Shown here piece by piece: positions 19,895 through 53,187 of a DNA stretch of 64,000 nt. The notes below the pieces were generated by a model. That model was not told the DNA's origin, made no database searches, and saw only the letters and a program-made list of their open reading frames with translations. The stretch comes from Peronospora farinosa (lineage: Eukaryota > Oomycota > Peronosporomycetes > Peronosporales > Peronosporaceae): NCBI GenBank assembly GCA_947646735.1, contig CANTFK010000673.1, positions 172,139-236,138 of the forward strand, read 5' to 3'. Both the position numbers and the translations under genes were made by a program. Numbering within the stretch: position 1 is the first letter of the stretch; the number at the start of each line of letters is the position of its first letter.

Positions 19895-20484
19895 TGTAAC
19901 TGGACAATGGTTACAATTAATAATTAATGTAAGGTCTAAAAGTATCTATGATTACTTTTGACCTGTCACTTGGGTGCGATACACAAATGTGATTCACCCT
20001 CGTGAACGTGATATCCATTGATGGATTCACATGGGAAGGGATGACGCTACTTGAATCTAGGCATCGCGACGTCCCAAAAGGACGTCATTAGCGAGCTTAA
20101 ATCTACATTTAAGCTCACACGTCAGGATACGCTTCTAAAGAGTCGCGTATCAGCGTTCCGATCTTTACATAAATAGCCAATCGGTAGTTAAGTATATATT
20201 TGGTTATAATTCATTAAATATAGCTCAGTCTTGAATTTGCTAAATCGAAAGCACCGCGCACGAGAAGCTGAAAAATCTTCTGCGTGACGTCGGTGACTTG
20301 TTGTTTAGAAGCTCGTTGCACTCTCGCTGAAGCGAGAGTGCAAATGGTGGTACGATTGCCTAAGCAGTCGACCAACCACACAACCACCCTCGCACGCGAA
20401 GTTAAGACGGTCTAACCGCTTCCTCGCTTGTGCTAAGTGTGCGCTAAGTAGCAAGAGGAAACTTCGTAGAAGTCCCCGTCTACA
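19895..20484 (+). repeat. E1 5' LTR
   Basis: 590 bp, about 15 bp shorter than the 3' copy because of changes near its start. Contains three perfect hairpins: 20068-20086 (7-bp stem), 20093-20116 (10-bp stem) and 20316-20343 (12-bp stem, TGAA loop). Confidence 0.92.
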
Positions 20485-27283: not shown

Positions 27284-27888
27284 TGTAACAGGGTATTTAG
27301 TTACGCGTAAACATTAATTAATAATTAATGTAAGGTCTAAAAGTATCTATGATTACTTTTGACCTGTCACTTGGGTGCGATACACAAATGTGATTCACCC
27401 TCGTGAACGTGATATCCATTGATGGATTCACATGGGAAGGGATGACGCTACTTGAATCTAGGCATCGCGACGTCCCAAAAGGACGTCATTAGCGAGCTTA
27501 AATCTACATTTAAGCTCACACGTCAGGATACGCTTCTAAAGAGTCGCGTATCAGCGTTCCGATCTTTACATAAATAGCCAATCGGTAGTTAAGTATATAT
27601 TTGGTTATAATTCATTAAATATAGCTCAGTCTTGAATTTGCTAAATCGAAAGCACCGCGCACGAGAAGCTGAAAAATCTTCTGCGTGACGTCGGTGACTT
27701 GTTGTTTAGAAGCTCGTTGCACTCTCGCTGAAGCGAGAGTGCAAATGGTGGTACGATTGCCTAAGCAGTCGACCAACCACACAACCACCCTCGCACGCGA
27801 AATTAAGACGGTATAACCGCTTCCTTGCTTGTGCTGAAGGTGTGCGCTAAGTAGCACGAGGCAACTTCGTAAAAATTGCCCGTCTGCA
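27284..27888 (+). repeat. E1 3' LTR
   Basis: 605 bp, TGTAAC...CTGCA, with the same three hairpins as the 5' copy (12-bp stem at 27717-27744). Differences from the 5' LTR are concentrated at both ends. Confidence 0.92.
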
Positions 27889-38305: not shown

Positions 38306-41236
38306 GCGGATTTACCTCCCTCGTTTCTCGAGGCGCTAATAATCCCGCTGCGAAAAAAAGGAGACTCGGACGACGCGATGGATTATCGTCCGATCTCCTT
38401 ACTGCAAACCAGCTACAAGGTGTTTGCCAAGGTACTGGCAACGAGATTACAGCTATCGTTACCCCGGGCCATCAGCGACTCCCAACAAGGCTTTGTGCGC
38501 GGGCGCAAAATGTCCAAACCAGTTATGATGATGATGGCTCAACTGTCGACTGCAATGGAGCAAGAGGAGGTGCCGACAGCACTCAGTCGGTGTATTTTGC
38601 TGCTGGATTTCAAGAAGGCTTATGATACCGTGGACCGGGACTTTCTGTACGCGACTCTACGTCAGTTCAGCTTTGACGAGCGATTCATCGACCTCATTCG
38701 ACGTATTCACACCGGCACGACAGCCAGCTTCGTCGTAAATGGTTGTTATTCCACACCTCTACAGGTTCGGTCAGGGATTCGGCAAGGATGCCCGTTAGCA
38801 CCTCTTCTATTTTTGCTAGCAGTTGAGGTTCTCGGCCTAGCACTTCTGCAAGACCCCAACCTTAAAGGGCTACAAGTGCCCGGCCAGCCCGGGCAGACCC
38901 ACCTTTACTCAGCATTTGTGGATGACACCACCCTATTTCTCGAGACAGCGGAGCAAATACCCCACGCGTTACATGTTGTGCGAGCATTTGGCGCTCTTGC
39001 TGGCCTACAGGTTCAACCTGCAAAGAGTCAGCTGATATTTCTGAATAGATCTGTCATGCTGGAGAGGTACGAGGGAATGACGGTCGTCCCCGCGGGCGCA
39101 ACAACTCGATACTTGGGCTATGAGGTTGGAACGGGGGAGTTAGTGAACAAGAACTGAGCCCAGCGGATCCGGAAAATTCAAAGGAGGCTTCTCACAGCGA
39201 CACGAGTAGCAACGAGCGTGGAGAATCGTGTGTTAATCCTCAACTCCATCGTGTTTCCCTCATTATTATTTACCGCGATAGTTTTTGAATTACCTCGGTG
39301 GGCGGAAAAAGAACTGCACAATCTATACAAGCAATTCCTGTGGGCGCACGCGACGACGACAGAAAGCAGTCGCCACAAGGTTAATCCTGGACTACTTGTG
39401 ACGCCAAAACAAGCGGGAGGCATCGGACTAGCGGCTGTTTCGGTAGCGGTTAAAACTCAACGCACAAAGCACGCGTTTGCTTGGCTTACTCAGAAGCCGG
39501 ATAAATACTATACTGCATGGCGAATGTGGACTTTCCGGAACAATCAAGGACCGGCCGCGACAATAGTGACTCCGGCTCAGGCTAAACTACGGGCATTGTT
39601 TAACCGGGCAGGTTCGCCAGGCCATGAGCTGAGGCAGGAGCTGGGAGAACGGCTCTCCCCAACAACAGATCAACAGGACCAGGTGACCGCGTGGAGGCAC
39701 GCCCACTCCTCGGCCTTACTTGACCGAGCCATTAGCTGGTGGGAGGGGGACGAATTGGTACTGTCGTTCATTGACCCTTTCCCCATACGGCTGCTGGGGT
39801 ATGATGATATGCCGGAGGAAATTCAGCGATTCTGGGCCACTTTTAACTGGAGTGCGAACCCATGGATTCGGGACCAGGGAGGCAACATGCTGGCCAGGAC
39901 TACTTATAACAGGATCGAGGACTGCACCCTCGAACAACTACACATCCGGCGTACGGGGCCAGCGGAATTCGTTTTACGAATACCAATCCCTCAGGACCAA
40001 CCCGGCCCTCATTCCAACGCAAAACTCCGTCGGTGGGCAACAGCCATCTTGCTTTCATCCCCGGACTTACCTATCGGGTCAGAGTTGCACGCGGCACCGC
40101 CACTACGCCTACGACAGGCACCACCATGTCTCCGCAGTTTTCGCTGGAAGCTTCTCGGAGCAGGCCTTATCGAAGGTCACTCGACGGATATCAAGCACGG
40201 CCAAACTCGGCCTGTCACTCTGCACCAAGCTGATGATGGGTTACACTGGTTTTGTCACGGCTTCCTGCCGGAGCTCACTGTCGGTTCGCCATCGGAACGC
40301 CAGGCGGTCTGTCGTGAGATTAGAACTTGGGGTCTGGTATTCGAAGCGCACCCGCAGCTGCATCGGTTTCCTTGGTCTGTGCCGACCACAACGTCTAATC
40401 ACTTCGTTACAAAGGCCTTAGGCAAGCAAGCTTTCCGGTTCCATAAAAAGGTTCTCGCTCGCCAACTTTCCGTTCTCATTGATCGACTGTCCAAATCTGC
40501 AACGACGGATGAATGGCAATGCGCAGCGCTCCGGCAAACGCCGAGGCAAGTGTGGGATCATAGTAATGGACTCACACCGTATCCAGTCTGGACAGGGTAC
40601 AGGGTGGCGACCAGACAATTAAATCTGTATCACGCTACGAGGTACGAAAATAATAGTTGCAGAAAGGCACCGGCCTGCAGCGGCAGTGAGGAGACCATTG
40701 GTCATCTGTTTTGGGACTGTGCCTGCGCTGCAGCGCTATGGGGCAAACTTATTGGTCACTGGACTGGGCAACAAGTTACCCGCCAAGCGACCAAACACTT
40801 TGTGGTGGCCTGTGCAAGCCGAAGGGTTCACAGCATACCCGAGCACCGTATGCAAAGTCTAGCGGACCGATTTCAGGATGACACGGATGCAGCCGAACGT
40901 GTCTGGACGCGAATTTGGCACGTCTTGGCAACGATATGTCACACACGGCTATGGGTCGACAGAAATGCCGCTGTCTACAAGGCAGTCCCGCTCCACCTTC
41001 CCAGCAGCATAGCCAGTTTTTGGGCTTCGTGCCTTTGTCAGCTCCGAGCGATCGCGAAGAGAGAGCATCAAAAAGTTGCGTCCGCCACAACGGGTGCTTT
41101 GCTATATGCATGCATCGAGTTGCTCGAGCGCGAACCTAGAGGGCCACCGCTTTCAACGGTGACCAGCCATGATTTACAGTCGGGCCAACCGGCGTTGACA
41201 TCCTGGCTCAGGACTTTCCAGAGATCTTGCACATAG
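38306..41236 (+). pseudogene. LINE ORF2 (RT and C-terminal zinc region), one in-frame stop
   Basis: A single frame of about 976 codons interrupted only by TGA at 39155-39157. RT landmarks: DYRPISLLQTSYKVFAKVLA, LLLDFKKAYDTVDRDFL, GIRQGCPLAPLLFLL and the catalytic AFVDDTTLF at about 38915-38940. The C-terminal half holds the zf-RVT type segment (GSEETIGHLFWDCACAAALW, with Cys-x-His-x-Cys spacing) near 40680. No endonuclease domain because of 5' truncation. The codon context suggests TGG to TGA. The single lesion and clean target duplication point to a fairly recent insertion. Confidence 0.9.
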
Positions 41237-41278: not shown

Positions 41279-41289
41279 ACAGTCAAGTG

Positions 41290-41345
41290 TCCGACAGCCA
41301 GTCAAATGTCCAACAGCCAGTCAAATGTCCAACAGCCAGTCAAGG
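41290..41345 (+). repeat. Short tandem repeat upstream of effector gene
   Basis: Units of about 19 bp of the form CAGCCAGTCAAATGTCCAA, roughly three copies, starting inside the LINE target duplication. Confidence 0.75.
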
Positions 41346-41415
41346 TCACAAACAGCCTCCCCACATTACATTTTGCCTGCCACTGTGCACGTACAGTAAG
41401 CGCCAGCCCACGACG

Positions 41416-43298
41416 ATGCTGATTGTTACCGCGCTGATCCTATGGTCAGCTGCGAGCGTGGCCTCCGCGATGCCTGTGCATGTCATCCATAGCGCACACG
41501 AGTCTACTACATGGAATGTGACGAACACTCCCCTCTCGGGCTCAAGCGTGAGCATGAATTCAAATTACTATACCTACAGCTCCGAGGAGAGAGGTGGACC
41601 ACCGGCGGATATCGTAACCATACTAAAGAATTTCCACGCATCCATCATACCGTCTGCTACGAGCGAAATTCCTCAGTTCGAAGCCATGAGTGAGGAATTT
41701 ACGCGTCTAACCCAAAGTGGCGAAACAACTTCATTTGTACCCGACTGGAAAAAATTTGTCAAGTCACAATACCCAAGTCACCCGAAAATTGCAGAAAAGG
41801 TAATATTCTTGACATTGGCATATTATTTTACGGGTGATGTTCTCCGTCATTTCCTAGTTGCGGGAACAAAGGTTGACACAACGAAGTACATTGCTCTCGA
41901 ACTACTTAACCTCGTGATCAATAAGTGGAAAAACAACGGGCAAAGTGAAGCAGAGGTATTTAAGCTTTTGGAGCTTCAGCAGCCGAATGGCAATCTTTTC
42001 GAAGGTCCAATCTTTGGTAAGTGAATTGAATTCGTACAAGCCAAATATGAAGGTCAACACGAGCGTTATAAAAAGATGTATGAAGTCTTGGCAACACATT
42101 TTAAGGTCGACGACCTAGCCAGAATTCTGGTTAAGGGAGCAGAAAGCGATGTTGGTGAAGAAATGAATGGCCGTGCTAGAAGTCTGCTAGACTTTCAGGT
42201 CCGTAGGTGGAAGACCCTTGACCGAGATGAGGCAAATGTGTTTAAGCTGTTGCAACTCGACGAGACAAAAAAACCTTTGGAAAGCCCGGTTTTTCTTAAG
42301 TGGGCCAAGTTCGTCTGGCTGCGATACCCTAAAAAAACTCCAATAAGATGATTCTCGACAAACTATCATCTATTTACGAAAGCAAAAATGCTTTATTGGG
42401 TGGTCTGGATGCGCTAGATCGAGCAAAAGCCTCTTCTCAGGATAAAGCTGCCGAAAAGATACTAAAGTACCAGTACAAGCAGTGGGGCAACAAAGGTGCG
42501 GAGGAGGTTTTTGATATTTTAGAGCTCCAACGGACAGATAGCAATCTTTTCGATAAGCCGGCCTTTTCCGCGTGGGTCGGCTTCGTCTCGTCAATATCGT
42601 CGGATGGTTTAAAAGCATTTAAGACGATACTCTCCTTCCTTGGACTTGATTACAAGGACAATCTAGAGACAATACTCTCCCTCCTTGAACTTGTTTACAA
42701 GAATAGACCCAAGACGATGCTCTCCATCCTTGAACTTGTTTACAAAGATAATCTGGTCAAAGCTTTAGATGACGGAACAAAGATTAAGAAAGTGAAACCC
42801 GTCGCTGAAAATGTGAAGGCAGCCTTGAAAAGAAAAAAGGAGACAGAAGCGAAGAATAAATTGCGATTGGCAAAACGGAAAAATTCTTACTTACAAGAGC
42901 GTCCACCGGCGAAACGGCAGAATTCTAAGCGTCCATTGGCGATCGGGCAGAATTCCAAGCGTCCACCAGGACTAGCATCAGCATCAAAACCAGCATCAGA
43001 CCTAGTGCCAGACCCAGTAACAGACCCAGACCCAGCACTAGACCAAGTATCAGCATTAGGCCCAGCACCAGCATCAGCATCAGCATCAGACCCAGCACCA
43101 GACCCAGCACCAGACCCAGCACCAGCACCAGCACCAGACCCAGCACCAGCACCAGACCCAGCACCAGCACCAGCACCAGCACCAGCACCAGCACCAGCAC
43201 CAGACCCAGCACCAGCACCAGCACCAGCACCAGCACCAGCACCTGTGGCGAAATGGCCGATAATCGACTTGAACAAGCTACCGAATGAACGGCATTGA
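41416..43298 (+). pseudogene. Secreted EER/WY-type effector gene, interrupted
   Basis: From ATG 41416 a typical signal peptide (hydrophobic core, small residues before the cut) is followed about 30 residues later by an EER motif; I see no RXLR. Three similar modules of the oomycete WY type follow (a conserved Trp, a VF-x2-L helix and an LF/LE-x-P-x-F end), at about 41900-42020, 42175-42320 and 42450-42590. Two lesions break it: a TGA at 42022-42024, where modules 2 and 3 have Trp, and a frame change near an A7 run at about 42330. After module 3 come three short ILSxLxLxYK repeats, a basic Lys/Arg-rich stretch (KRKK; possible nuclear localisation) and a Pro-Ala/Asp-Pro tail. WY effectors act inside host plant cells to dampen immunity; here the full protein cannot be made by simple translation. 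The first frame alone could still yield a 202-residue secreted protein. Confidence 0.7.
43003..43245 (+). repeat. Pro-Ala/Asp-Pro coding minisatellite
   Basis: A CCAGCA hexamer array interspersed with CCAGAC units, encoding PAPAPDP-type sequence over about 80 codons at the end of the effector frame. The array is imperfect at its start and nearly pure toward its end. Confidence 0.9.
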
Positions 43299-44742: not shown

Positions 44743-44800
44743 CTTGGTAGCACTGTAGTCAATCCTACACCTGAGTCTATAAGACTGACCCTCTGTGAGG

Positions 44801-45357
44801 ATGGAGAATCAAAATCATCTCTCTGAGGCGCAACGACTCGCCTTAGATAAACTATCTACGTTCGTCGGGCCTGATCAAATCGAGGCCCTTTTGTCCCAAG
44901 GCCCCGAGGTTTTAAATGCTCGTCTTGAGGCCTTTATGCGTTATGAAGCAACGCTACTCATGCAGGTCCATGACTAGGCAGCGTCAGCTGCGCCTACGCA
45001 GTACATCCCGGTACCTGTGCCCGATGCAGAGCCAAAGGCTCGCCCACTTGTTGTAAACGTGAAAACCTTTGAGGATAAGGAGGGAGAAAATCTTCTCCTC
45101 TTGAACCGAGAAGTTAAAAGTGGCAATGGATGCTGCCATGTTTGTGTCAGATAAGCAACGAGTTGTCTTGGCCATTTCTTAGCTCGGTGGAAGAGCTACA
45201 GATTGGGCTCTAACGAGCGATGTCTCCGTAAATGCCGCATTTCCCACATGGGAAATGCTTAAAAAGCAAATTAGTTGCGTGTTTGCACCGCCTAATCAGG
45301 CTTATCGTGTGCGCTCACGCTTCTTAGCTACCCGACAGGGTAAGAAAGAATTGTCGG
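44801..45357 (+). pseudogene. Gypsy E3 gag, 5' part
   Basis: ATG 44801 opens MENQNHLSEAQRLALDKL, similar in style to E2 gag start, and stops at TAG 44975. Downstream the frame shifts but keeps gag features (VMLKKQISCVFAPPNQAYRV; RSRFLATRQGKKELS). It is cut by the E2 insertion at GTCGG and continues at 53188 with SDYVQELRTLIAVMQ. Confidence 0.8.
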
Positions 45358-45689
45358 TGTAACGGGGCTAGAACGTACCGTCACTAGCTTACACGTGCGC
45401 TTGAGGAAGACTCAAGCCCGAGTATTAGGTATTAAGTAAATTTAACTCTGATTTTTATTTTGGTTTTAATTCGTACTAATTACGAAGATTTTAGTCGTAA
45501 TAAATACGACAGTGTTCCCGCCTTTCGGGAACCACACAATTTCAGGTTGATTTATCATTGGTCCATATTGGGGACTTTAGGCCCAATAATAAACCAATAA
45601 TAAATTACCACGCTGTGCCCGCTATTCGGGCCCAGCACCTGCCTATGTTTATTTGTGTTAATGCTATATGTGTAATGTAGCCCATTACA
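45358..45689 (-). repeat. E2 3' LTR (left copy)
   Basis: 332 bp bounded by TGTAAC and ACA on the plus strand. Contains hairpins at 45399-45417, 45514-45532 and 45617-45631. Because the antisense ORF starts 14 bp beyond its edge, an antisense promoter would have to lie in this LTR. Confidence 0.93.
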
Positions 45690-45702
45690 TCACCCCCTTC
45701 TC
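45690..45702 (-). promoter_or_regulatory. E2 polypurine tract
   Basis: Reads GAGAAGGGGGTGA on the minus strand, directly before the 3' LTR. The antisense ORF ATG (45703) abuts it. Confidence 0.85.
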
Positions 45703-47166
45703 ATGACAGCACTCACCAACCGTGAGTGCTCAACTGTCGAAAACCCTTCGCCCACAAACGAACAAGCAATGTCCGGAGACCCAACACCCAATCCAGCAGA
45801 ACTCCCAAGATACATCAGCGGGAATGCATCAACCAACATCATGGCGCGGCAGCTCATACCTTGGTCGCTGTACGACTTGTCCGGAGCTCACGCTCCGGAC
45901 TCACTGGACATGATGCGGGACTACTTCCGCCGATTTCGAAAATTGCGCGGGAAAGGTCTTGATGGAATCGAGCATGAAGCTCTACAACGTTCTTGGTGCG
46001 CCTTCATCCAACGTTGGAATCGGATGCTCGAGGATGGTAGCAGCTTCCAGTTATGGCTCGCCAATCGAGAGGAGCTTCGCGCCGATCACTCCATCGGCGC
46101 GCTACGCGAAAGAGTGTGTGAGGATGCTTGGAATGAGGACCGTCTCTGCTTCGTCCATGTCAATGAAGGATGCCAATCTTGTGACTCGACTCCACGCCCA
46201 ACTCATGACGAATGGCGACGACACATCGCTGAGTGTCCACTCAGTGATCGCGAACGAAGTTGGATTGCGAAGTATGAGCGAAGTCTGGGCGAACGGAGAA
46301 GCGCAGTTATTCGTGGTGCGCCCTGCTGGCGGCACCACTCGCGACAGCGGAGTCGATCTCCGCGGGATCATCAGCGCAGGGCAGCGACACGTTCGCCTGC
46401 CCGTCCAGTTGCGCGATTCTCGCCTAGCAATCGTGATATGTATTCACCGCGACATTCTCGATCACGGCATCGATCTCGTTCGCGACATCGTTTGCGTTCG
46501 CGACATCGTTCTCGTTCTTGTCATCGTTCCCGTTTCCGAAAACGTGAATCTCCTTACCGCTCTCGTTTGTCACGAGAGCGTTCGCGTGCTCGCCCGCCTT
46601 GGAATAGTCCGACTTCGTGGCTTCATACGACAGAACCACATCTGGAACGTCACGAAGGAGCGAGGAACGTGGTTCCCATGTATCCTGCTCGGGAGGGAAT
46701 CCAAGCCAACGTACTCGGTACCTACGCACGGATGGAACCGCACGCTTCTCATGAGCCGACTGCAGTAATGGTTGTGGAGGGTCCTCGTGACCCACAATGC
46801 GGTCTACAATCCAGCGCACCTGTCCCTCCGCATCAACAAGCGGAGGAGGGCTCTCGCGGTGGTAGAGCTGGCGTCCTGGTTGCTCAGGACGATGTTGATC
46901 AGGCCGTGAATATAGCTGCCGATGCTCGGCTGGAGGCTGAGGCTGCCAGTGAACGTGCTGCCCAGGCGGAGAAGACTTCGAGTGAGACCCGGCAGTCGAA
47001 CCGTGAACTGCTCGAGCGGATAAGGATTCTGGAGCGCCAGATGCTTGGTCAGGTTCAGACGGGATCGAGACCCCGCCCCATGTCATCGGCGCGTCGAGCG
47101 CGACGGGAAGGCCGTTCGACTTACGAACCCCTGAAGCCGGCGTCGGAGCCAAACCGTGAAGCGTAG
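45703..47166 (+). CDS. E2 antisense ORF, 487 residues, intact
   Basis: ATG 45703 to the stop before 47167, on the strand opposite to gag-pol. Residues about 45-200 look folded: helices with WSLYDLSG, DYFRRFRKLRGKGL and WCAFIQRWNRML, then a candidate zinc site C-x2-C...H-x4-C (CQSCDSTPRPTHDEWRRHIA, then EC). Residues about 205-315 are Arg/Ser-rich (RHRSRSRHRLRSRHRSRS), like SR or nucleic-acid-binding proteins. Residues about 390-445 are a predicted coiled coil (QSNRELLERIRILERQMLG), followed by a basic tail. The 3' half overlaps the chromodomain end of pol by 743 nt. The sense pro-pol has three stops but this frame has none. E1 has an equally placed frame of similar length. Function unknown; a nuclear or RNA-binding accessory protein is the natural guess. 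Confidence 0.6.
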   Translation: MTALTNRECSTVENPSPTNEQAMSGDPTPNPAELPRYISGNASTNIMARQLIPWSLYDLSGAHAPDSLDMMRDYFRRFRKLRGKGLDGIEHEALQRSWCAFIQRWNRMLEDGSSFQLWLANREELRADHSIGALRERVCEDAWNEDRLCFVHVNEGCQSCDSTPRPTHDEWRRHIAECPLSDRERSWIAKYERSLGERRSAVIRGAPCWRHHSRQRSRSPRDHQRRAATRSPARPVARFSPSNRDMYSPRHSRSRHRSRSRHRLRSRHRSRSCHRSRFRKRESPYRSRLSRERSRARPPWNSPTSWLHTTEPHLERHEGARNVVPMYPAREGIQANVLGTYARMEPHASHEPTAVMVVEGPRDPQCGLQSSAPVPPHQQAEEGSRGGRAGVLVAQDDVDQAVNIAADARLEAEAASERAAQAEKTSSETRQSNRELLERIRILERQMLGQVQTGSRPRPMSSARRARREGRSTYEPLKPASEPNREA

Positions 47167-50100
47167 CCGGACGATATTCCTTCAGCCGCCCGACATAGAA
47201 TGTCGGGTGGAGTCGCAGTGAAGAGGGGACGTCGAGTGTATAAGCGTCGCCAATTGCCTTCAGAACCTTGAATGGACCGATGAAGCGTGGCGCGAGTTTA
47301 CTCGCGCCCAGATTAGTGACCGCAGAATCCCTTAAACCTTCCGTCGATAATAATACACGGTCACCTTTCTCAAACTTGCTCATGTTCTTTCTTCCATGTT
47401 TGTCAGCGTTCTCCTTCTGTAGGTCTACAGCAGTTTGTAGTGCGTCGCGTACAAACCTGGTGATGGCTTGACGTTGGAGTATAAATTCCGACACGGCCAT
47501 GTCATCAATTGGTCGCGCCGACTCAATCGGCGCGTAGTTGGCAGTAGAGGGAACGCTTACCCGAAGACGGTTCAATCAATGTCTGCGCAGTCCATCGAGC
47601 TAATGGGGACGCCACGTCTGATGGCGCCAAATGGCCGTCTTTGCCTTGGATCGTGTTACTGCATTCGCGCTCAAAATACCGTGAGCTGCACTCGATCCTT
47701 GTTTATCACCTTTATCCCCCCCCAGAGTGGAGCCACTAGGTGTTGTGGGTCGCCCCACGGCCAGGACAGTAGGAACACGAGGGTGACGAGCCGAATTCAC
47801 AAAAAATGGCGTCAACCCTGTTGACGCGTGTACGGCGTTGTTGAGTGCGAACTCAGCGAGTGGTAAAAATGCACTCCAACTTGTAAATGACGTAGCATAA
47901 CTCCGAAGAACATCTTCGAGGACTCGGTTCACGCGCTCGGTCTGCCCATCCGTTTCCGGATGGGCTGCCGTCGACATCAGCAGTTTTGTCCCGAGGAGCT
48001 CGAAAAGTGATGTCCAAAATGCGGACGTAAATCGCGGATCACGGTCCGAAACAATGTTTTCTGGAAGGCCATGATGACGGAACACCGCGTCGATGAAGTG
48101 CGCCGCGGTCTCTGCCGCGGTGACCTTAGCGTGAACAGGCACGAGATGTGTCATCTTGCTGAATCTGTCAACAAAGACCAAGATGCCCGTTCGAGCTTGG
48201 CTATCGGGCGCAAGCCCGAAGATAAAGTCCATCGAAACTGATCTCCAGGCCTCTGCTGCAATTGGCAACGATCGCAAGGGAGCCTGTGACGATGGAGATG
48301 GCTTCACACGCTGGCATATTTCGCACGTTCGGATCCAGTTGCGTACCCACTTATACATGTGGGGCCAGAAGAAGTCTCGAGACACAGCCGCGAAAGTCTT
48401 TTCGCGGCCTAAATGGCCGCCAGCAGGAGCATCGTGATACTCGTGAATGATTCTTGCACGCAAATCCATGTCATTGGCAATCACCGTGCGAGGAGCATCG
48501 AATTGGTCGATGCTATACAGAAGCAAATCGCCATCTAAACTGTATCGATGAATATGGTCGCGCTTGGTACGGGATAATGCTCCCAGTGCAGCATCGCTGG
48601 GAGCACGCAGATACTCGATAATGTCTGCATAATCTGAGTCACCCTTGTACGCTGCGACGATCTCATCAAATAAACACGGCTCGGGTGTAACCCGAGTTAA
48701 GTTCAGCGATACACACATTGCACATCGGTCATCATCGTCCTCGTCATCAGTAGCCTGGCGACTCAGAGCAGTCCGAGGATCGTAGTCGGGACGTCGTGAC
48801 AAGGCGTCAGCGAGAATATTGGTCTTGCCTGGCTTGTAATGCACGACGAAGTTGTACTCAGAGAAGAATGAGAGCCATCGTGCCATCCGTTGGGACAGGT
48901 GTGGGCTCTTCATCGCTGTGCGCAGCGATGCATGATCGGTGTACAAAGCAAACGTACTTTCACCAAGGAGATGCACGCGAAACTTGATGAGTGCATAGCG
49001 CATCGCTAATAACTCCTTGTCGTGAACCGGATAGTTCTTCTCAGCTGGCTTCATCTGTCGCGACTGATAACTCACGACTCGTTCACGGCCCTCATCATCA
49101 AATTGCATGAGGGCACAACCGATTGCAAAATCACTGGCGTCGCAAACCACGTGGAACGGCTTGGAATCGTCTGGTAGGACCAGGACTGGCGCTGACGCTA
49201 GGCTCTTCTTTACTGCTTCGAAGGCTGCTTGGTGCTCGGGACGCCACAACCACGTGGCGTCTTTCTTCAAGAGTGACGACAAAGGCTGGATAGAACCAGC
49301 ATAATCCTTCGTATACTTGTGCAAATAATTAGCCAAGCCGAGCCACTGGCGCAACTCCGTAGGGTTCTTGGGCGTGGGCCAAGAACAGATGGACGACACC
49401 TTCTCTGGATCAGCTCGAACTCCCGATTTACTCACATAGCAACCTAACACCGGAATCTCCGGTGCACAAAAGACACACTTCTTGAGATTCGCGTACAACT
49501 TGTTGTCCCGCATAACTTGAAACACTTGCTTCAGGTGTTGAAGGTGAACTTGGACATCGTTGAGGTTGCCCTCGGCGCGACTATGGACGAAGATATCGTC
49601 AAAATAACTTGGGGCAAAGTTCCGAAGAGGTCTCAACACTTGAGACACCATGCGATTGAAAGTGGCCGGAGCGTTCTTCAACCCTTGTGGCATTACCAGC
49701 CACTCCCATAACATGCCACTCGGGGTGCTCACCGCGGTGAGTGGGATATCGCTCGGGCGCATCAAAATCTGGTAAAAGCCATCGGTCAAGTCGATGGCAC
49801 TGAAGATGACACTACCTGACATGGAATTCAGCACCATGTCCTTCCTGGGAATTGGCGTTTGCGCAGGAATAGTGGCATCATTCAACTTATTGAACGCATG
49901 CACTATCCGCCAGCCTCCCGTAGCCTTCTTCACGCAGAAGGTTGGACTCGAATGTGGTGAGATACTCTCCCGCACATGACCCGCTTTGCGGCGACCTTCA
50001 AAGAATGCGTCAATAGCTTCGACTTGATCTCGAGGCAACGGCCACTGCCGTGTCACACAATACTTCGACCCTGGCACGAGATAAATCTCGTGCCGAACAC

Positions 50101-51654
50101 CGCGGTCCGCAGGAAGTTCAGCCGGGATCTTGTCCGGGAACACGTCTGCATACTCACGAGCAATGTCGTAGACGAGGTTACCAGACTCTCTCAGGGCCTC
50201 CCATGACTGTGATGCAAACCTTTCTTCACGCGCAGACTTCGGCTCAGCGCTTTGAGGACGCGCCATATGCTCCTCGTTTGCCACGGTAACCACCTCGTTG
50301 GTGATTAGACACACTTGTTCCACAGTGCCTCCCTTAAGGTCACGTAGGAAATGCTTCCAGGAAAGCCCTGAAAGACTTGTAATGGAAAACGCATTACGAG
50401 GAGGACTCTCGACCTCGATATATTGGCGCCTTTGTGGACTCCCTTCCACGTACACGATAGCGTGGAAACATTCCAACGCTAAATTCTCGGTGCTGTTTTC
50501 CCCATCGTGCTTCGAGTCACTACTCGAAGCTGGCGAACCGCAGTCAGGTGATAAACCATCACCCCCCTCTAGGCACTGGATGTCGTCATCCAAGAAGCCG
50601 GAAACACTGGACGGGAGTACCCCAAACTCGACCGTCGACACTTGATGCGGGAGCTCCTGCTCGGCCGCCGTAAACCCGCGTGGGAGCCCCTACTCAACCA
50701 CAGTATGCCCATGTGGGAACCTCGGTTCGACCACAGTGGGTGATGATGGGAACCCCGGTTCGACCATCATGCTCTCGCGTGGGGACTCCTGTCCGTCCAC
50801 GTTGTACTCGTGTGGGAGCCCCTGCTCGACCACAATATTCCCATGTGGGAACCTCGGTTCGACCACAGTGGGTGATGATGGGAACCCCGGTTCGACCATC
50901 ATGCTCTCGCGTGAGGACTCCTGTCCGTCCACGTCACACTCGCTGGCGAGCTCTTGCTCGTCGCCACAATGCCCTTGTGGGAGCCCCTGCTCGACCACAA
51001 TAGGTGCAGATGGGAACCCCGGTTCAACCACTGCATTCACGTGCGGGAACCCCTGTTCAACCGCATTAATGACGCGCGGGAACCCCTGTTCGACCGCGTC
51101 GTCCTCGTCGTCCTCTTCGCTCTGTAGCGAGGAGTCACTGTCACTTGTGTCCCGAAGAACAGCACAAGCAGTGCAGAGAGGGCCATCGCTCGCTCTGTGC
51201 ACCGCCAACGTCGTGGAATCGCGATCCACGACTGTGACGTTTGGCCAGTCACTTGGAGATACCAAGAGATGGGTAAACACTTCACTGACATCGAACTTGC
51301 GTTGACGTCTCACTGATCTGGCTAACCAGTCGATCTGGGGCTTATAACGTGCCAACCATGGCATGCCCAGTATGCAATCGAATGCATAATTCATCGCGAT
51401 CACCAAGAAATCATCATTACTGCGAAAGCCATCAAACGTATACGGCAACGACACTTCGCGCCGCGATACGCGGTGTGGTTTCCCGTCAGCCAACTTGACG
51501 ACGACTTGGCCAGGTCCCTCACGGACCTGAATGCTGGGAGGCAGCATCGACAAACAAGATTCACGAAAGAAATTGTTTGTTGCTCCTGAGTCCAGGAGTA
51601 CTCGCAGAGGTCGCCGGACGCCGGCGACATGTAAACTGACAATAATCAGACGTT
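46424..51654 (-). pseudogene. E2 protease-RT-RNase H-integrase-chromodomain polyprotein, three stops
   Basis: The frame opens after a TAA near 51655 without an ATG. Protease active site VLLDSGATNNFF, then CILGMPWLARYKPQIDW. An acidic linker with VVEQGFP-type repeats follows (50690-51120). [35 protein letters not shown], catalytic [11 protein letters not shown] near 49595. RNase [19 protein letters not shown]. Integrase: [63 protein letters not shown]-terminal GPF module (APRFIGPFKVLKAIGDA) and chromodomain (YRVRWLGFPPEQDTWEP). In-frame stops are TAG 50688-50690, TAG 47600-47602 and TGA 47576-47578; no frameshift occurs across about 1,740 codons. Confidence 0.92.
50705..50960 (-). repeat. 132-bp in-frame tandem duplication in E2 linker
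   Basis: Copies starting at about 50708 and 50840 (plus coordinates) are almost identical, 44 codons each, encoding VVEPGFPSSPTVVEPRFP and neighbours between protease and RT. Confidence 0.85.
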
Positions 51655-51768: not shown

Positions 51769-52818
51769 CTACTGGTCCCGACCGTTTTTTGGACGTGCGG
51801 CCGGCACAACACCCTCATGATGGGCGTCCACTACTTGCACCGATAATGGGGCTGGCGCACGGCACTCTGCCGCGCGATGTCCTGGCTTGAGACAACGAAA
51901 GCAAACCATTGGACGCCCGGTGCGAGCGTCACCTTTATGATGAAAGACACGTCGCCGGTCACCCGACGACTCCATAACGTCGATCTCCATAGGTTCTGGG
52001 CCAGAAGGCCGGGGAACGCTGACGACCGAGGGTTTGGCATAGGCCTTTGTGACCCTAAAGTCTTCACGGAGTGCGATGGCGAATGCCTCCTCCAATGTGG
52101 CAGGCTCGGCGCGCTGCAGCGATAAGCGGGTCTGCCCCTCACGCATACCATCCACAAAGACATTCACCTGTGTGTACATGTCCATGGGGTGCGTGATAAT
52201 ACACGACGCCAGATGCCTAGCCATCTGTACGTAGTCGCGCATCGCCATTTTACCCTGTCGCATCGACAGGAATCTTGATCGCACCAGCTTCTCCTCTTGT
52301 GGTGGCTCGAAGGCAAGACGGAGATCGTCCTGGATGGTATCCAAGGTGGGAAATGCGTGCTCGTCCACAACGAGTTTACCAAGGGCCCACTCCTTGGCCT
52401 TCCCAGTGAGGCGGGAAAGAAGAAAGTTGACCTTCGCCTGTGGAGCCTCAAGAAGTCTCGAGGCGATGGCGATATCAACTTCTCGGAACCACCGGTTCAG
52501 CGATAACCGGTCCTTACCTTCTCCAGAGTAGGAGGAGGTTTCCATCTTCACGGCCTCATTACGTGAAGGGCGCGAGGGAGTTAAGCCTCGCCGGTTGGAT
52601 TCGGCGAGCTCGCGTGCCATAAACTCATGTATGGCGAGACGTTGCGCGTCAGGGGTCGCTGATCTCATCAGCGACGCGACGAATGCCTCTCCCGATATCG
52701 CCGCGAGGCGATTAAGGGCATCCCACTCAACACCAGTAAGATGGGGGAAGGTCGCGTGCTCCAGAAATAAATCTGGAGCGTCAAAGTACGACGATTCGCT
52801 CATCCCAAACTCGGGCAT
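51769..52818 (-). CDS. E2 gag, intact
   Basis: 349 codons from ATG 52818, 27 nt inside the 5' LTR edge. Capsid core: [35 protein letters not shown], then [20 protein letters not shown] and [14 protein letters not shown], standard Ty3 gag order. The nucleocapsid knuckle [14 protein letters not shown] (C-x2-C-x4-H-x4-C) lies near residue 312. Ends TAG at 51769-51771. The protease frame begins about 115 nt downstream in another register, so pol expression would need a frameshift, reinitiation or spliced mRNA. This protein could coassemble with those of other copies. Confidence 0.92.
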
Positions 52819-52834
52819 AGGAAGGACTACAAAG

Positions 52835-52842
52835 TGCTACCA
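52835..52842 (-). promoter_or_regulatory. E2 primer-binding site
   Basis: TGGTAGCA on the minus strand, two bases from the LTR end; same site as E1 and E3. Confidence 0.7.
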
Positions 52843-52844
52843 GG

Positions 52845-53187
52845 TGTAACGGGGCTAGAACGTACCGTCACTAGCTTACACGTGCGCTTGAGGAAGACTC
52901 AAGCCCGAGTATTAGGTATTAAGTAAATTTAACTCTGATTTTTATTTTTCGTTTTAATTCGTACTAATTACGAAGATTTTAGTCGTAATAAATACGACAG
53001 TGTTCCCGCCTTTCGGGAACCACACAATTTCAGGTTGATTTATCATTGGTCCATATTGGGGACTTTAGGCCCAATAATAAACCAATAATAAATTACCACG
53101 CTGTGCCCGCTATTCGGGCCCAGCACCTGCCTACATATGTAATTGTTTATTTGTGTTAATGCTATATGTGTAATGTAGCCCATTACA
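52845..53187 (-). repeat. E2 5' LTR (right copy)
   Basis: 343 bp; differs from the left copy by the CATATGTAATTG segment near its right end and a GG/TC change in a T-rich run. Confidence 0.93.

Follow-up and report, generated by a model that had tools for sequence, protein, structure and literature searches.

This work concerns an open reading frame (ORF) that runs backwards through the 3′ end of a long terminal repeat (LTR) retrotransposon in a stretch of 64,000 nucleotides of Peronospora farinosa DNA (contig CANTFK010000673.1; the whole stretch is called the window below). The ORF occupies positions 45703–47166 of the forward strand, extends over 487 codons (487 amino acids) from its first ATG to a TAG without an internal stop, and is documented by the ORF list, by its genomic copies and by homologs. 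Its ATG comes straight after the 13-nt complement of the polypurine tract, which was read from the sequence at 45690–45702 of the reverse strand. The frame overlaps the end of the pol gene (46424–47575, reverse strand) by 743 nt (46424–47166). A first-pass annotation made from the letters alone had described the intact frame, its start beside the polypurine tract and the overlap with pol, and all three descriptions hold.

The element lies on the reverse strand, with the 3′ LTR at 45358–45689, directly upstream of the antisense ORF, and the 5′ LTR at 52845–53187. Pairwise comparison of the two LTRs gave 331 identities, one mismatch and 11 gap positions, and the repeat GTCGG flanks both ends of the element, so that an LTR pair with a target-site duplication is present. 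Pfam models place the reverse transcriptase (RVT_1), RNase H (RT_RNaseH) and the integrase zinc-binding and core domains (Integrase_H2C2, rve) at 47600–50641, followed at the 3′ end of pol (46424–47575) by SH3_Tf2-1 and Chromo, with E-values of 3.1e-15 and 7.4e-8, respectively. A gag-like ORF with a CCHC-like knuckle, read by eye, is in the usual sense position (51769–52836), and the pro-pol strand of this copy consists of several separate open pieces. The element is recent, and the order reverse transcriptase, RNase H and integrase with a terminal chromodomain identifies it as a Ty3/gypsy LTR retrotransposon with a chromodomain; the named pol proteins that score highest against it belong to Peronospora farinosa (90% identity) and P. 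effusa (89%).

Four parts can be distinguished in the antisense ORF. Residues 1–46 (45703–45840) are an open frame with no sign of protein constraint, a possible 5′ leader; Met47 to about residue 205 (45841–46317) make up a conserved N-domain, predicted to be folded, with near-invariant C139, C149 and C160; residues 204–315 (46312–46647) form a predicted disordered region rich in Arg and Ser; and a predicted long C-terminal helix or coiled coil covers about residues 391–451 (46873–47055).

Selection and conservation of the frame

The main evidence for a gene is selection on the frame together with its conservation across genera, which, at the level of the sequence, argues strongly for a coding function. 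Copies of the frame were collected from the genome by scoring 88 of 883 candidates, which gave 89 matches at 88 places; the 88 rows counted below are all of these loci, with the window's own locus included as the reference row. An open frame of at least 430 amino acids bearing the domain is found in 31 of them and is decayed in the other 57, while the start ATG is retained in 81 rows and the stop TAG in 85, and we regard a coding frame opposite gag-pol, close to the 3′ LTR, as kept in most copies. The first-pass annotation had held that random stops in other copies would speak against a gene; stops are present, and the long frame is kept in only 31 loci, but the shared variants described below show purifying selection in residues 49–203.

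Two classes of variants were compared, those shared by at least three copies and singletons seen in one copy only, both treated as independent although the copies are related. Residues 49–203, picked from the cross-species alignment, have no pol on the opposite strand. Singletons were approximately neutral, with omega values of 0.87–1.47 in all six frames and four regions including the LTR. Shared variants in residues 49–203 were distributed over the codon positions as 16/12/33 (p = 0.0007), with the excess at the third position of the ORF; pol outside the ORF, as a positive control, gave 21/10/39 (p = 10−4) with respect to its own third position, and the bias over residues 1–240 was weaker (35/37/52, p = 0.028). 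The numbers of nonsynonymous and synonymous changes (N:S) agree with this picture: 23:30 for shared against 146:63 for singleton variants in residues 49–203 (p = 0.00063), 24:33 against 156:59 in the pol control (p = 3 × 10−5), and no difference in residues 1–48 (20:7 against 54:17, p = 1).

These data bear on the possibility that the frame is an accident, held open by the constraint on pol in the opposite direction. Within the overlap, the conserved domains of pol do influence the antisense sequence, and the openness of the 721-nt non-overlapping part has a chance near 1% (42 of 4000 order-2 Markov resamples were free of stops). However, pol does not reach the selected domain, and the sense frames there contain 8–12 stops in the window and in the diverged copy L099 taken together, and a chance ORF of 269 codons in another forward frame, taken in its part outside pol, covers part of the same DNA and has no sign of selection (42:11 against 162:53, odds ratio 1.25, p = 0.6). 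We consider the chance of such an accident negligible.

Indels shorter than 100 nt and common to at least three copies were also tallied. Their lengths were multiples of three in 0 of 9 cases in the LTR, 0 of 1 in the ORF outside pol, 5 of 5 in the overlap and 0 of 2 in pol outside the ORF. The sole shared indel in the ORF outside pol is a 1-nt insertion in four copies, within residues 1–48. Those in the overlap (3, 18, 18, 36 and 54 nt, at 46435–46470 in the Arg/Ser part) sit where pol is also in frame, and therefore do not by themselves prove the ORF.

Eight extra copies (L097–L104), all with pol on the opposite strand, extend the comparison to greater distances. Against the window, residues 49–203 gave ratios of nonsynonymous to synonymous rates (dN/dS) of 0.13–0.39 with 0–2 stops per copy. 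L099, the most diverged of them, represents a subfamily with 57% protein identity over 472 alignment columns; in residues 49–203 it has dN 0.149 and dS 0.874 (ratio 0.17) with no stop in the ORF frame, which contains two stops further downstream. Of the other frames, only the mirror frame, in which third positions are shared, also has a low ratio in this region (0.26), and 8 stops interrupt it in the window and L099 together. In residues 1–48, dN/dS was 0.78–4.06 in seven of the eight copies, the eighth having no synonymous change. In the non-overlapping part, for which the first-pass annotation had proposed a dN/dS test, residues 49–203 are well below 1 and residues 1–48 have no sign of protein constraint. 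As L099 also has no ATG at the position of the window's first Met, the constrained protein probably starts near Met47, and the true start may be Met47 rather than the ATG beside the polypurine tract. Two homologs, P0011 and P0015, have Ile at the position of Met47, so their start must be upstream.

Homologs outside this genome were sought with the single sequence (18 found) and with an alignment (34, including those 18); both searches scored only the 8000 candidates with the most shared words. The 24 homologs with a named source all come from Phytophthora (capsici, ramorum, rubi, fragariae, nicotianae and megakarya), Peronospora (matthiolae and destructor) or Hyaloperonospora (arabidopsidis), so that the search beyond this copy suggested in the first-pass annotation was answered with homologs in three genera.

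We then used a codon-complementarity test on proteins, which determines codon by codon whether a homolog could be encoded opposite pol, with the 120 best of 434 pol relatives. For the window's own pair of ORF and pol, the run in register s = 1 reaches 245, against 7 and 5 in the other registers. In the first set, every one of the 18 homologs attains at least 17 in s = 1, and shuffled pol never exceeds 15; in the second set the run is at least 16 in 9 of 16, which brings both sets to 27 of 34 with a maximum of 15 for shuffled pol. Examples of such runs are P0001 with P0022 (222), P0010 with P0072 from P. fragariae (113 residues) and P0017 with P0078 from P. destructor (80), the contigs of P0017 and P0078 both being 16,284 long. 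In a stricter version, with Arg/Ser-rich stretches masked and reversed pol as an added control, s = 1 exceeds every control in 23 of 34 homologs, with at least one from each of the nine named species; P0014 passes narrowly (14 against 12). In P. fragariae, homolog P0139 (PF003_g40587) and the pol protein P0092 (PF003_g40586) have neighbouring locus tags and equally long contigs, and the two models do not overlap in the complementarity test (best run 9). The occurrence of the same register across genera indicates that the arrangement either predates the split of the genera or has moved among them.

Predicted product and candidate promoter

For the full protein, AlphaFold2 with a 19-sequence alignment gave a mean predicted local distance difference test score (pLDDT) of 60.7 and a predicted template modelling score (pTM) of 0.38. 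The model has a helical region with block-mean pLDDT of 77–93 over residues 61–200, disorder over most of residues 1–51 and 210–393 (pLDDT below 50 over most of the latter), and a single helix at 395–451 with block means of 93–96 over residues 401–440. Residues 47–209 modelled alone reached a mean pLDDT of 83.4 and a pTM of 0.67, with seven helices, and this predicted folded part coincides with the part under selection. Among solved or viral structures there was no convincing match, and no known fold was recognised.

The first-pass annotation had also proposed a C2HC zinc site, an Arg/Ser domain and a C-terminal coiled coil. The second of these is borne out by 15 RS/SR dipeptides in residues 204–315, and the third by the predicted helix together with a heptad pattern in which, for the best of seven phases, 78% of a/d positions are ALIVM against 27% elsewhere. 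For the zinc site the cysteines stand and the histidine does not: in the homologs that cover these positions C139 is kept in 26 of 27, C149 in 25 of 26, C160 in 26 of 27 and C157 in 21 of 26, whereas H174, the one candidate His examined, is kept in 14 of 25. C139, C149 and C160, with C157 in most homologs, could form a metal site; any such site would more likely be of the C4 than of the C2HC type.

The LTR next to the ORF contains four CCAAT boxes, two in each direction (ATTGG at 45557 and 45567, CCAAT at 45583 and 45594), and 45557–45598 is a candidate core of a bidirectional promoter. The boxes are kept in 83 of 88, 70 of 77, 76 of 85 and 79 of 85 rows, respectively, and their spacing (10, 16, 11) is identical in L099, which has one extra ATTGG. 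Two boxes per strand were reached by 38 of 5000 order-1 resamples. Those on the forward strand precede the first ATG by 109 and 120 nt; in P. infestans, as described in PMC3599244, CCAAT is mostly at most 150 nt from the start codon. Two DPEP-like matches occur on the forward strand of 45540–45860, and the same description has 46 of 121 well-mapped promoters without INR, FPR and DPEP-type motifs alike.

Beside the polypurine tract, positions 45708–45731 form a perfect 9-bp hairpin with the loop CAACC, identical in 62 of 88 rows and intact in L099. Three copies have a change in both arms that preserves pairing, and in others a pair is broken. Its conservation rank among 24-mers is 171 of 709, which is not exceptional by that measure; it could be an RNA signal on either strand.

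Role of the antisense gene

We regard it as very nearly certain, judging from sequence alone, that the frame is a real and selected antisense protein gene. That the antisense RNA and not a protein is the functional product, by silencing or by interference with the sense RNA, is very improbable: non-coding antisense transcripts are reported elsewhere, e.g., for micropia in the account of PMC7264820, and the pol overlap would permit duplex RNA, but the selection seen in codon phase, the conserved amino acids and the folded domain that is predicted all require a protein, to which an RNA effect may be additional.

An identical 140-bp deletion in the conserved domain, not a multiple of three, is found in 5 of the 88 loci (L088, L092, L093, L094 and L096). 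The flanks of the five loci are unrelated, with 17–27% ungapped identity over the last 120 nt, and the derivative is 98.9–99.7% identical to the window copy in the longer matched part and 96.3–97.5% in the shorter. The same deletion at five unrelated sites means that the derivative has moved several times without an intact gene, and this spread indicates that the protein is not needed in cis, which we take as an argument for an effect in trans. Either intact copies would help in trans or the gene would not be required for movement. In L088, L092, L093 and L094, the frame after the deletion (residues 152–487) is open for 368 amino acids, so a shortened protein is possible.

The same derivative is what would be expected if the antisense product restrains the element, as self-restriction or copy-number control, and derivatives without it escape and spread; its presence at five unrelated sites in a form close to the window copy looks as if loss were tolerated or favoured. 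A purely self-limiting gene should, however, be lost repeatedly, yet this one is conserved across three genera, and the deletion is in only five loci. We consider this explanation rather unlikely. A real protein could also be a structural or nucleoprotein helper in the cytoplasm, either an RNA-binding packaging factor or a capsid partner working with Gag, to which we give a small but appreciable chance.

The explanation we prefer, and think reasonably probable, is that a Peronosporaceae Ty3/gypsy retrotransposon with a chromodomain carries an antisense accessory gene that acts in trans. The LTR with CCAAT boxes in both directions would fire from its 3′ copy into the element, the resulting antisense mRNA would be translated from Met47 or an upstream Met, and the protein would pair through its coiled coil, enter the nucleus by means of the Arg/Ser region and act in trans on the RNA of the element or the chromatin of its LTRs, as a regulator similar to HBZ, Rev or gene23. 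That the product is a trans-acting nuclear regulator is our best guess, put forward with slightly less than even confidence. More tentatively, Peronosporaceae Ty3/gypsy elements may have a two-strand genome, in which a bidirectional LTR yields gag-pol one way and, the other way, a protein that contains a helical domain of unrecognised fold, overprints the chromodomain tail of pol and influences in trans what becomes of the element's RNA or chromatin in the nucleus; it would have an origin independent of HBZ and the plant TRP28 genes. With regard to the first-pass annotation, the interpretation as an antisense gene is supported by selection and homologs, with three corrections: a start near residue 47, a C4 rather than C2HC site, and a protein not needed in cis.

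Several observations weigh against the explanation of an accessory gene acting in trans. The gene is known here at the level of sequence, and the openness of the frame is modest evidence alone. Codon-phase bias was not found in residues 1–48 (10/16/14) or 204–240 (9/9/5), and the overlap as a whole is weakly constrained in both frames, with dN/dS of 0.69 for the ORF and 0.59 for pol and a shared-variant phase test that is not significant for either (p = 0.079 and 0.15, respectively). In the complementarity test, register s = 0 also gives runs above 15 in 14 of 18 homologs of the first set and 5 of 16 of the second, is longer than s = 1 in P0007, P0013, P0015 and P0150, and s = 2 reaches 19; in the strict test P0004, P0013, P0016 and P0150 have their longer run in s = 0, and seven further homologs have no signal above control. 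It should be noted that for P0002 and P0013 the s = 0 run directly adjoins an s = 1 run against one and the same pol protein, which is the pattern that a frame shift in one of the two sequences would leave. The CCAAT boxes are no more conserved than the LTR in general (median 5-mer conservation 0.92), and neither INR nor FPR, as defined in PMC3599244, was found on the forward strand of 45540–45860. No fold or Pfam match is informative on function, and the spread of the deletion derivatives could mean that the gene is dispensable.

Known systems and neighbouring features

The closest parallels are the antisense ORFs (aORFs) of plant Ty3/gypsy elements (TRP28 of the Retand lineage, gene23 of maize Grande, and rice RIRE2), which are likewise antisense between or beside pol and the 3′ LTR. 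According to the descriptions in PMC11963269 and PMC7264820, they are kept in most copies and across species, and a nuclear or regulatory role has been proposed. They are described between pol and the 3′ LTR, whereas here half of the gene overlaps pol in antisense; Retand is described as a non-chromovirus, whereas the present element has a chromodomain and an oomycete host. TRP28 (PF04195) was not found in any of 19 homologs scanned at E ≤ 0.1. The HTLV-1 gene HBZ and related retroviral antisense genes likewise adjoin the 3′ LTR. HBZ belongs to the bZIP proteins; Pfam scans of the ORF and its homologs found no bZIP families, only a plain coiled-coil-like helix, which sets the present protein apart, and a relation in sequence or fold is not part of the likeness. 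For HTLV, the antisense promoter is placed in the 3′ LTR by PMC7264820.

Among oomycete elements, the Ty3/gypsy element Chronos, as described in PMC5348765, has a chromodomain at the end of pol as here and, unlike the copy in the window, carries a further RNase H (aRNH). For that copy, Pfam at E ≤ 1 found in the two pieces of pol only RNase H models linked to reverse transcriptase and no additional plant-type RNase H. The main text of PMC5348765 makes no use of the word 'antisense', and among the matches listed for literature titles and abstract openings there was no antisense retrotransposon gene from an oomycete.

What distinguishes the gene within the known antisense aORFs is its place in a new branch of life, the unusual overlap with pol and a domain whose fold was not recognised. 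Such genes are known from a few retroviruses and from elements of flowering plants. Oomycetes would add a third, apparently independent case, under selection in several genera and overprinting a pol domain, and the gene written backwards from the 3′ LTR would then become a comparative question across LTR elements. A set of 'hypothetical proteins' of Phytophthora and downy mildews is explained as one retrotransposon gene family, and the N-domain is now a defined target for biochemistry. The arrangement suggests that the backwards gene is an unstudied means of self-control of the element.

Within the element, the pro-pol linker contains 33-nt repeats (50649–51110). To its left, 44800–45357 of the forward strand looks by eye like the beginning of a further gag, and an insertion of the element into an older one is therefore possible. 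Elsewhere in the window, two direct repeats of 300 nt, 100% identical and 7401 apart (19915–20214 and 27316–27615), are probably the LTRs of another very recent element, and forward-strand ORFs at 38378–41236 resemble by eye the reverse transcriptase of a non-LTR retrotransposon. Two adjoining forward-strand ORFs at 41287–43298 share by eye a similar Lys/Trp-Gly...Glu-Val-Phe-Leu motif; a hydrophobic stretch opens the first at its N-terminus and a long Pro/Ala/Asp repeat tail is present in the second, and they are possibly genes of secreted proteins.
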